A stretch of 41,517 bases of DNA from NCBI GenBank assembly GCA_946544235.1, contig CAMNMC010000115.1, positions 1 to 41,517 on the forward strand. The letters run 5' to 3'. The position numbers were made by a program, and so were the translations under genes. Source of the DNA: an uncultured Lachnospiraceae bacterium (GTDB lineage: Bacteria; Bacillota; Clostridia; Lachnospirales; Lachnospiraceae). The stretch's first letter is position 1. Each line of letters begins with the position of its first letter. Shown piece after piece: positions 19,213-33,554 of the stretch. Under the pieces are notes generated by a model, which did no database searches, was not told the origin of the DNA, and saw only the letters and a program-made list of their open reading frames with translations.

Positions 19213-19431
19213 TTATTTCCACCTCTTTTTTACAGAAAATACGATACCTATTCTATCATATTCTCCCTGTTTCAACAAATTAAATATACTTTGAATAAGC
19301 CGTATCTCCCCGTCATCATTATAAAATACACTATTCATGTTTTCTGCCTGTATATGCACACCCACTTATGGATTTTATTCTCAACAAGTTCAGATTAGCA
19401 TTAAAAGGGTAACAAAAGAGCAACAAATAAG

Positions 19432-19582
19432 TCACGGGATTGCCCGAACGCAGTGAGGATTGTAACGGTCCGAAGGACCGTGAGTCTGTCCACAGGACAG
19501 ATGCGTTCTGCAAAGCAGAACCAAGACTTGCTACGCAAGTCTTGCATATCACGAAGTGATATGGCACCGGAGGGTCCCGTGA
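19432..19582. repeat. Array I of back-to-back triloop hairpins
   Basis: An 8-bp closing stem TCACGGGA (19432-19439) pairs with TCCCGTGA (19575-19582). Between them are five perfect hairpins, each with a 3-nt loop: 19465-19481 (loop GAA), 19485-19501 (ACA), 19505-19521 (AAA), 19522-19544 (TAC, 10-bp stem) and 19545-19563 (GAA). The last three abut with no spacer. A weaker arm at 19444-19458 has the CC-GA-AC-GCA-GT-GA-GG pattern. Open frames here are by-products of the palindromes. Confidence 0.9.
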
Positions 19583-19663
19583 TCCGAGCGAAGCGAGGAC
19601 TCGTCGTGTGAAACACGACCGCAGCTGCGCAGCAGCTGAGCAGCATCATGGAACATGATGCTG
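19583..19663. repeat. Array II of triloop hairpins with a tandem-GA arm
   Basis: Directly continues array I. 19583-19599 is TCC-GA-GC-GAA-GC-GA-GGA, whose stem is interrupted by opposed GA dinucleotides. Then come perfect hairpins at 19603-19619 (loop GAA), 19622-19638 (GCA) and 19641-19663 (GAA, 10-bp stem). This leaves only a few unpaired bases in 80 bp. Confidence 0.9.
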
Positions 19664-19675
19664 GAGCAAAGCAAA

Positions 19676-19822
19676 AATAACAAGCCGTGCACTCACTGGA
19701 CATAATGCGCAGATGGGATGCTTGCATACCACTCTGTGTGTTATGTTCTGTGAGTATACAGCGCCTATGGCGCTGGTTCTTGAGACGCGCAGCGGATCAA
19801 GAACAGAACACGGCTTGTTATT
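19676..19822 (+). repeat. Cloverleaf element A with 14-bp terminal inverted repeats
   Basis: Perfect terminal repeats AATAACAAGCCGTG (19676-19689) and their complement (19809-19822) enclose three arms. These are a long imperfect arm at 19692-19754 tipped by ATGC-TT-GCAT; CAGCGCC-TAT-GGCGCTG at 19759-19775; and GTTCTTGA-GA-CGC-GCA-GCG-GA-TCAAGAAC at 19776-19804. A homologous, inverted copy lies at 32208-32349. No flanking target-site duplication is evident and no gene is inside. Confidence 0.85.
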
Positions 19823-19850: not shown

Positions 19851-19864
19851 TTCAGTACGTATAA

Positions 19865-19890
19865 AAAAGGATCCCGCAAGGGATCCTTTT
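19865..19890 (-). terminator. Intrinsic terminator of ilvC
   Basis: AAAAGGATCCC-GCAA-GGGATCCTTTT, an 11-bp stem with a tetraloop, followed on the minus strand by further T residues. It begins 22 bp beyond the ilvC stop codon. Confidence 0.9.
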
Positions 19891-32144: not shown

Positions 32145-32207
32145 AATAAAAATAGAGCCATCTGTATATCCGTATGACGAATTATACTCACAGATGAGTC
32201 GATAAAT

Positions 32208-32349
32208 ATAACAATCCATGCTCTGTTCTTGATGCGCTTCGCTCATCAAGAACAGGCGCCATAGGCGCCGTATATTCCTCAAAAAAGAAACAGATGTGTA
32301 TGCAAGCATCCACATCTGTTTCTTTTTTTCGTCATGCATGGCTTGTTAT
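32208..32349 (-). repeat. Cloverleaf element B, inverted homologue of element A, also a terminator
   Basis: Terminal repeats ATAACAATCCATGC (32208-32221) and 32336-32349 match at 13 of 14 positions. Arms are 32224-32254 (TGTTCTTGATG stem; minus strand tip GA-GC-GAA-GC), 32255-32269 (GGCGCC-ATA-GGCGCC) and 32281-32328 (18-bp A/T-flanked stem tipped by ATGC-AA-GCAT). The last arm has A- and T-runs and would terminate both purC and the aldo/keto reductase gene. The right repeat contains the latter's stop codon. Confidence 0.87.
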
Positions 32350-33554
32350 TTATGCTTGGTTTTCTTAACTTTAGCTTTGCGGAACATGTACTTTCTGGCG
32401 ACAGCCATTCCGATCTTATAATAAAATGGACGCAGCTTTTTGTCCGCCTCCTTTATTTTCTCACGGATTGGTATATTTTGCGGGCAGTGCTGCTCGCATT
32501 TGCCACACTTGATACACTGGCTTGCGAAAACAGGATCCTTCGTGAGTCCGACAGACTGAGCATACTGGAAGCGTCCGTCCTTCTTGCTTTCGATATACAT
32601 CGTATTGTAACAGCTGAAAATTCCCGGGATATCCACTCCCTTAGGGCAAGGCATACAGTATCTGCAACCGGTGCAGCCAACCTTCTCCTTCTCCTTGATG
32701 ATAGCCTTAACCTTTCCGATAAGAGCCATATCATCCTCTGTAAGGTGCCCCGGAGTTGCCGCAGATGCAACCTTGCAGTTTTCCTCAACCATCTCTACCG
32801 TGTTCATTCCCGAAAGAACGCAGGTAACCTCCGGCTGATTCCAGAGCCATCTGAAGGCCCACTCAGCAGGCGAATAACCATTCTTATCATCCGCTATCAG
32901 CTTCTTCGCCTTATCCGGAAGCATATTTACAAGCTTACCGCCACGGAGCGGCTCCATGATGATCACCGGAATACCCTTCGCAGCCGCAGCCTTAAGTCCC
33001 TTAACTCCGGCCTGCGAAACCTCATCCATGTAATTATACTGGATCTGGCAGAAATCCCAGTCATAGTCATCAAGTATCTTCAGGAAATTGTCTGTATTTC
33101 CGTGATAGGAAAAGCCTATATTTATTATCGCTCCGGACTTCTTCTTTCTATCTATCCAGTCAAGTATGCCGACAGCCTTGAGCTTCTCCCACATACCGAT
33201 ATCCGTAAGCATATGCATCAGATAATAATCGATATAATCTGTCTTCAGCCTTGAGAGCTGCTCGTTAAAATATTTATCAACAGCCTTACTGCTGGCGATC
33301 ATATACTGTGGCAGTTTGGTTGCGATTTTGATCTTATCTCTTATATTGTTACGCGCAAATATCTCACCGATGGCAACCTCACTGCCCGGATAGATGTAGG
33401 CTGTGTCATAGTAATTAACGCCTGCGTTATATGCAGCCATGATCTCCTTCTCAGCCTTATCCAGATCAATAGAGTTACCCTTCTTGGTAAATCTCATGCA
33501 GCCGAAGCCGAGCACCGATATATCGTTTCCGTATTTATCTTTTCTATACTGCAT
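32346..33554 (-). CDS. Aldo/keto reductase with C-terminal 2x[4Fe-4S] ferredoxin domain
   Basis: The 402-residue fusion has an AKR barrel (about 1-285) with catalytic Asp and Tyr in NYYDTAYIYPGSE, Lys in IKIATKLP and His in DYYLMHML. A ferredoxin-like domain (about 290-375) has two cluster motifs, CTGCRYCMPCPKGV and CIKCGKCEQHCPQ. A basic tail follows. Such fusions are common in anaerobic Firmicutes and are annotated as general oxidoreductases; the substrate is unknown. GGAG precedes the ATG. The stop codon lies inside the terminal repeat of element B. Confidence 0.95.
   Translation of the reverse strand: MQYRKDKYGNDISVLGFGCMRFTKKGNSIDLDKAEKEIMAAYNAGVNYYDTAYIYPGSEVAIGEIFARNNIRDKIKIATKLPQYMIASSKAVDKYFNEQLSRLKTDYIDYYLMHMLTDIGMWEKLKAVGILDWIDRKKKSGAIINIGFSYHGNTDNFLKILDDYDWDFCQIQYNYMDEVSQAGVKGLKAAAAKGIPVIIMEPLRGGKLVNMLPDKAKKLIADDKNGYSPAEWAFRWLWNQPEVTCVLSGMNTVEMVEENCKVASAATPGHLTEDDMALIGKVKAIIKEKEKVGCTGCRYCMPCPKGVDIPGIFSCYNTMYIESKKDGRFQYAQSVGLTKDPVFASQCIKCGKCEQHCPQNIPIREKIKEADKKLRPFYYKIGMAVARKYMFRKAKVKKTKHK

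Follow-up and report, generated by a model that had tools for sequence, protein, structure and literature searches.

The window, by which we mean the whole 41,517-nt stretch of Lachnospiraceae DNA analysed here, carries two copies of a three-armed, cloverleaf-shaped element. They raise the question of whether such a shape is kept as RNA or as DNA, and to which class of repeats the elements belong. The first-pass annotation had described element A as perfect 14-bp terminal inverted repeats (TIRs) enclosing three arms, and had noted that the reverse complement of a second element aligns along it. This geometry is confirmed (Table 1). The terminal repeats of element A are exact reverse complements of each other, and its fold has 59 pairs, 55 of them Watson-Crick, arranged as an outer stem of 14 perfect pairs and three arms. 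Measured against dinucleotide shuffles, the folding z-scores of 19676-19822 and 32208-32349 range from -8.4 to -11.4 on both strands, and none of 200 shuffles is as stable as element A or B. Once reverse-complemented, 32208-32350 matches element A over almost its full length (positions 1-146 of 147), with 77% identity and an E value of 1e-20. Over element A, the open reading frames of at least 100 aa amount to a single 108-aa frame that runs out of the element. Four genes flank elements A and B, namely ilvC, a gene for a 252-aa protein with at most a sub-threshold zinc-ribbon match, and the genes of SAICAR synthetase and an aldo/keto reductase with 4Fe-4S domains. Element B supplies the last of these genes with its stop codon. 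The earlier statement that no transposase is present holds for these four genes, the only ones annotated. Next to element A, 19400-19668 contains a second dispersed repeat of about ten small hairpins, by eye mostly perfect, which have differing stems and three-base loops. Pieces of this array recur beside other elements (L007, L043, L103, L112, and L113) and in the genomes G002, G005, and G015.

Table 1. Positions of elements A and B, their parts, and the neighbouring ilvC hairpin in the window
Feature	Position	Strand	Remark
Cloverleaf element A, whole	19676..19822	+	Plus orientation has the long arm first
Element A, left terminal inverted repeat	19676..19689	+	5' strand of the outer stem
Element A, arm 1	19691..19755	+	Long hairpin with GCTTGC tip (CUUG-type loop on this strand); T-run absent
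Element A, arm 2	19759..19775	+	Short GC-rich hairpin; contains the compensated pair 19760/19774
Element A, arm 3	19776..19804	+	GTTCTTGA...TCAAGAAC, inner stem variable
Element A, right terminal inverted repeat	19809..19822	+	3' strand of the outer stem
Cloverleaf element B, same family	32207..32350	-	Between the convergent SAICAR synthetase and aldo/keto reductase genes
Element B, arm 1	32281..32329	-	A-run and T-run, terminator-like in both directions
Separate terminator-like hairpin of ilvC	19863..19890	-	Beside element A; judged by eye

The host genome (2.87 Mb in 119 contigs, 82% complete) was searched for further copies. The blastn search gives 43 matches. With a covariance model of 21 copies there are 63, and 34 of these cover the model from end to end with scores of at least 76 bits; among the others, many represent fragments or the same copies read on the opposite strand. 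The full-span copies are 127-151 nt long, and four that look truncated or mosaic (C22, C71, C72:9350, and C109) are kept among them. In a sequence-only MAFFT alignment of 21 host copies, which is not fitted to structure but whose structure is its own consensus, 19 of 51 pairs vary on both sides and 95.5% of cells pair. None of 500 shuffles attains any of five covariation measures. As had been read from two copies, the long arm keeps its tip while most of its stem sequence changes in step, and the pair 19760/19774, which is A-T in element A and G-C in element B, occurs as GC in 10, GU in six, and AU in five of the 21 copies. Hence, neither a genome lacking further copies nor stems lacking covariation, the two outcomes named beforehand as speaking against a dispersed family of structured repeats, was found. 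Two larger alignments were fitted to the structure and hence lean towards it. One aligns 60 copies to the first model and has covariation at 47 of the 51 pairs. The other covers 84 copies, drawn from 83 genomes and 79 other genera; covariation is seen at 50 of the 51 pairs, two-sided changes occupy 1331 cells versus 378 in shuffles, one-sided states occupy 95 cells, and the outer stem is paired at 91.5%. These 84 are mostly top-scoring matches and were taken from 90 fetched loci, L199, L200, and L254-L257 being left out. In slid controls, 32-46% of cells pair, whichever of the three alignments is used, and in each of the three the covariation lies outside the range of all 500 shuffles. The base-pair covariation in the cloverleaf family is overwhelming.

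We then determined the distribution of the family using a second covariance model, which was built from 60 copies and applied at an E value of 1e-5 or better with eight candidates scored per genome. The cloverleaf is present in 206 of 397 Lachnospiraceae genomes, representing 183 of 334 genera; two of the positive genomes, the host (G000) and G015, contributed sequences to the model. Five of 398 genomes drawn from the phylum matched, all of them Lachnospiraceae, the draw including that family in an unstated share. Among the matches listed, 28 examples have the order of arms in common, and their inner end usually approximates GCCATGC/GCATGGC. The tip GCTTGC is found in 55 of the 84 elements from 79 other genera. 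An exact 24-mer across arms 2 and 3 has nine matching stretches in sequence records, which come from Eubacterium ruminantium, a Eubacterium sp. from goat omasum, two Lachnospiraceae, and one uncultured Clostridiales. One exact search with this type of query and two blastn searches with element A gave no match in viral contigs, plasmids, and phages. At the gathering threshold, Rfam 15 has no match in the window and only tRNAs in 20 element-bearing loci, and a permissive search gave four matches, all far under gathering scores. Going by titles and the starts of abstracts, we found no paper about the cloverleaf element. The family is real, widespread, and absent from Rfam 15. It occurs in over half of the sampled genomes of a dominant gut and rumen bacterial family; structured repeats have been described from a few bacterial lineages.

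Evidence of mobility comes from related genomes. G452, G425, and G422 have similar copies at different places, with ends of GTAAC[AC]GTTCAGCC or close to it, and copies in copy-rich genomes are 117-181 nt long. Twenty such copies were fetched, 16 of which entered a permutation test, the four of G395 being inspected afterwards. Exact 8-bp target-site duplications flank six of the 16 full copies of G452, G425, and G422, all at the same boundary and flush with GTAAC...GTTAC, versus a mean of 0.00 and a maximum of 0 in 200 permutations of the flank pairs. At least seven of eight positions match in 11 of the 16, versus 1.81 in permuted pairs. As the exact duplications are matched by none in permuted pairs, the family includes transposons. 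A second fetch of 22 TIR pairs from G130, G452, and G425, chosen for paired or lone ends and counted without a permutation control, contains 11 exact duplications, three with seven of eight matches, and eight poorer ones. In G034, direct repeats of at least 6 bp (6-9 bp) flank six of 12 copies, which were picked from longer TIR pairs and earlier loci, versus 0.49 in the null. Two elements of G130 (L286 and L287; 323 and 289 nt) have the same ends and exact 8-bp duplications with one long imperfect hairpin in place of the cloverleaf, so the cloverleaf is dispensable for movement. Short forms of 68-94 nt with one main arm also carry duplications, and may be deletions after insertion. Two solo outer-stem palindromes without arms were seen, L117 (C80:3623) and L116 (C41:21324), the former running into a neighbouring box, a pattern that would result if one arm had served as template for the other.

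None of the 34 host copies has an exact duplication, and one matches at seven positions or more versus 0.42 expected. The 83 testable copies from other genera (one of the 84 has too short a flank) are near the null: two are exact versus 0.23 expected, both also belonging to the copy-rich set, and three match at seven positions or more versus 2.28. The four G395 copies lack target-site duplications, their best match being six of eight. For the elements in the window, mobility is thus inferred from family membership and dispersal. The first-pass annotation could assign the repeats to no known class. This is incomplete, as the target-site duplications and transposon-like ends of cloverleafs in related genomes place the family in MITE-like mobile DNA. 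By its features in the copy-rich genomes, the cloverleaf family is a MITE-like transposon family.

We looked for a transposase that might act as partner. End-pattern searches revealed no autonomous element with the same ends among the matches listed, several of the genomes being incomplete, and the open reading frames of six fetched G034 loci include no autonomous element. Of the fetched TIR pairs longer than 1 kb, one of 2.26 kb in G034 (L148) was rejected as an autonomous element, as it encloses a DUF885 gene. In the same genome (C13), a DDE transposase gene at L165:540-2204 lies near element ends and is enclosed in part, the loose left end being inside the reading frame. Judged from this arrangement, its product is a lead, a candidate partner not cleanly enclosed by good ends. 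Two other candidates were discarded. The Y1/RAYT transposase (PF01797) has no match in the host assembly, at its 82% completeness, with 33 of the 61 genomes searched, a set that includes the host, being positive. The IS66 transposase (PF03050) is encoded in three of 16 element-bearing genomes and in none of G452, G425, and G034; none of eight IS66 loci has cloverleaf-element ends on either strand.

The positions of the elements relative to genes were assessed with a simple longest-ORF gene call, an element being counted when its left end falls from -10 to +20 nt of a co-oriented stop codon. Elements without a called gene on either side were dropped, and expected counts were obtained by random placement within the same gap. 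The left end lies at a stop codon in 29 of 49 elements from other genera (10.0 expected), 15 of 17 from the host (6.5 expected), and 12 of 15 from genus relatives (5.2 expected). Since stop codons lie inside the left end of the element, reading frames that enter it end there, and these counts may be inflated. For the lipoprotein gene and guaA, the small number of cases set against relatives, the gene extends to its usual end. The right end has no stop-codon excess in other genera (5 of 32 versus 6.8) or genus relatives (2 of 9 versus 4.0); the excess seen in the host (10 of 21 versus 7.0, P 0.07) is not significant.

Several gene ends were compared between genomes. The stop codon of guaA, whose identity was confirmed by Pfam, is occupied by an element in five genomes (G015, G002, G046, G373, and Tb.RUG.144) of at least two genera. 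The arm 1 sequences of these elements have diverged, yet fold in the four complete ones, and in two genomes, G002 and G046, the right end has eroded. At the gene of a SurA-like lipoprotein (Pfam match above the cut-off), other hairpins follow the stop codon in G015, G005, G002, and G001, three of them with T-runs. Soon after this stop codon, G002 has a long, nearly perfect palindrome (L145, C26), apparently another kind of gene-end hairpin. In G015, a lipoprotein gene is followed by hairpin-rich units of about 60 nt in tandem (L143, C28, at about 12.1-12.5 kb), which by eye are unlike the cloverleaf. At the site of element B, G001 and G002 have plain hairpins with T-runs, and in G015 and G005 several kb of other genes separate the two flanking genes. 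In the 420 nt after ilvC, no element was seen by eye in six relatives; G015, G005, G002, and G001 have a hairpin with a T-run, G004 has one without a T-run, and G003 has none. As the relatives lack the element and four of the six have the T-run hairpin, element A was probably added beside the native hairpin of ilvC.

Many elements are accompanied by pieces of themselves. A 5'-truncated element copy lies within 220 nt on the right of 31 of 84 elements from other genera and 20 of 56 from the host and its genus, the score having used 82 and 53 of them, and in 22 of the 31 and 14 of the 20 it reaches to within five bases of the right end. No partial repeat was found on the left side of the 84 and 56 elements. 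The spacer recurs after the partial copy in 10 of the 31 and two of the 20, which points to local tandem duplication. Two further observations concern the flanks. Many elements adjoin a promoter-like motif, in which a pair of TTTGTTGC-type boxes spaced by about 11 nt precedes a TANNNT hexamer at a distance that, counted by eye, is about 12 nt (left flanks of several host copies, such as L002-L004, L006, and L010; L133, L143, and L147). The motif, which looks like a response-regulator site, is also present without elements in G015 and G002. Two cloverleaf elements in the same orientation stand on either side of a 922-aa gene at L096:2409-5177, whose product has a calpain-type protease domain. 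The gene is absent at that place in G015 and G005, and G002 has a 91% identical stretch elsewhere; a transfer flanked by cloverleaf elements is possible.

To distinguish RNA-like from DNA-like pairing, each copy was folded treating G-T and A-C alike. The 84 elements from other genera have 191 G-T and 87 A-C pairs; 57 elements have more G-T and 11 have more A-C. The G-T:A-C counts are 113:37 in arm 1, 47:25 in arms 2-3, and 29:24 in the outer stem, and those of the host and genus copies are 56:28, 37:16, and 13:21, respectively. Unsplit, the 56 host and genus copies give 106:69, which is too weak to decide, and since copies are related, none of these counts represents independent events. The G-T excess in the arms and not in the outer stem indicates that the arms tolerate plus-strand wobble like sense RNA; had the model search favoured plus-strand G-T, the outer stem would show an excess too. 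Selection on shape, as claimed in the annotation, is not uniform, the arms having a sense-strand bias that the outer stem lacks. What is maintained appears to be an RNA hairpin of the sense strand in the long arm and the ends of the DNA in the outer stem, and the wobble pattern fits a transcript that would end at arm 1, with the closing stem mattering as DNA. These two kinds of stem allow both constraints to be separated in one molecule. The family also cautions against taking covariation alone as proof of an RNA gene.

Other features of arm 1 were examined with respect to termination. A T-run of at least five is present on its 3' side in 55 of 84 elements from other genera and 37 of 56 from the host and genus, element A being among those without. 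Copies from the host and genus that adjoin a gene end have T-runs more often than those that do not (28 of 36 versus 9 of 20, p=0.019); in other genera the difference is not significant (25 of 33 versus 30 of 51, p=0.16). A consensus terminator scan did not pick out arm 1, and it also passed over the ilvC hairpin, in which the U-tracts are paired as part of the stem. Judging from place, sequence, and wobble polarity, arm 1 probably serves as a putative terminator.

We consider it fairly probable that element A is a copy of a Lachnospiraceae-wide, non-autonomous MITE-like family that brings its own putative terminator and is sometimes kept as the 3' end of a gene. A transposase supplied in trans would move the elements. 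Arm 1, a long hairpin with an A-/U-rich lower stem, CUUG-type tip, and tolerance of G-U, would be an intrinsic terminator in the sense transcript. If it acts in this way, insertion after a stop codon would do little harm and could replace the native terminator, and some copies would stay as the 3' end of the gene while their outer stem decays. A bolder form of this account, which we put forward tentatively, is that the element is a portable 3'-end module of the whole bacterial family, a structured RNA class missing from Rfam 15 that would spread by its DNA ends, settle directly behind stop codons, replace native terminators, and be kept at guaA and other genes by selection for the sense hairpin as its ends decay. 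Transposition would then supply working terminators.

It is unlikely, in our estimation, that the whole cloverleaf is instead a functional RNA of the 3' untranslated region, kept by selection for termination or for the stability or processing of mRNA, with mobility a side issue or an old one. The near-complete covariation across 79 genera, the stop-codon anchoring, the element at guaA in five genomes, and the confinement of matches to one bacterial family would all suit such an RNA, as would the RNAfold energy, for which the plus strand has the lower value in 79 of 84 elements; the search model may favour plus-strand G-U matches, however. The whole-element reading is weakened because the outer stem has no G-T excess. 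Moreover, a transcript that terminated at arm 1 could not form the closing stem, and the fresh target-site duplications reflect a transposon life in some genomes.

The coordinated changes in both arms of a stem could also arise without any selection on shape. Template switching within hairpins, of the sort that underlies quasipalindrome correction, would keep inverted repeats perfect at the DNA level with both arms changing together. The rarity of one-sided relative to two-sided states is what this mechanism would leave behind, and the solo palindrome L117, whose arms extend into the flank, the right-side partial repeats, and the abundance of small perfect hairpins around element A point the same way. 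It predicts equal numbers of G-T and A-C on the plus strand, however, which is not the proportion seen in arm 1 or in arms 2-3, and it leaves the conserved tip and the 8-bp duplications unexplained. As the full explanation we regard it as improbable; it may act additionally, above all on the outer stem. That the members are separate look-alike terminators, the model catching any long terminator hairpin with neighbours, is already disfavoured and very improbable. Arm sequences that are almost wholly different between genera would suit it, but the few matches among genomes drawn from the phylum all fall in one family, the arm order is shared by the 28 examples among the matches listed, and the tip, the inner end, and the right-side-only partial repeats recur.

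Our preferred reading, a non-autonomous MITE-like family with a putative terminator, can be compared with known mobile and repeated elements. IS66 insertion sequences have ends beginning with GTAA and 8-bp duplications. The copies of G452, G425, G422, and G130, and not those of the host, resemble them in both respects, and differ in that the IS66 transposase is missing from most of the element-bearing genomes searched, G452 and G425 included, and that the inspected IS66 loci have other ends. REP elements, which are associated with RAYT (Y1) transposases, are palindromic, intergenic, and often near gene ends, and so is the cloverleaf family. REP movement is not known to give a target-site duplication, whereas the cloverleaf family has such duplications and its host has no Y1 transposase. 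The BOX elements of Streptococcus pneumoniae are modular and hairpin-forming, with one module in variable tandem number. The cloverleaf family is likewise modular and hairpin-forming, a likeness of description, but what recurs in it is the right-hand portion, with 5' truncations that vary in position. Integron attC sites were considered for the place after the stop codon; the element ends do not fit the GTTRRRY core of attC.

With respect to MITEs, the family is short and multicopy, encodes no protein of its own, and has TIRs, and a fixed-length duplication is found in G452, G425, G422, and G130. Correia/NEMIS, RUP, and ERIC are bacterial MITEs, and stem-loops in NEMIS transcripts have been proposed as RNase III substrates, according to the portion of the source consulted (PMC2229807). 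By the same portion, the cloverleaf family is like them in being short and often intergenic, and in having TIRs, a target-site duplication, and possible RNA hairpins (PMC2229807). Correia, ERIC, and RUP have TA termini there, in contrast to the GTAAC ends and 8-bp duplication of the cloverleaf family (PMC2229807). Compared with Correia/NEMIS, RUP, and ERIC as that portion describes them, the cloverleaf family is distinguished by its three-armed shape, its presence in 183 of 334 genera, its conservation by covariation despite changes of stem sequence, its anchoring at stop codons, and its partial repeats on the right side only (PMC2229807).
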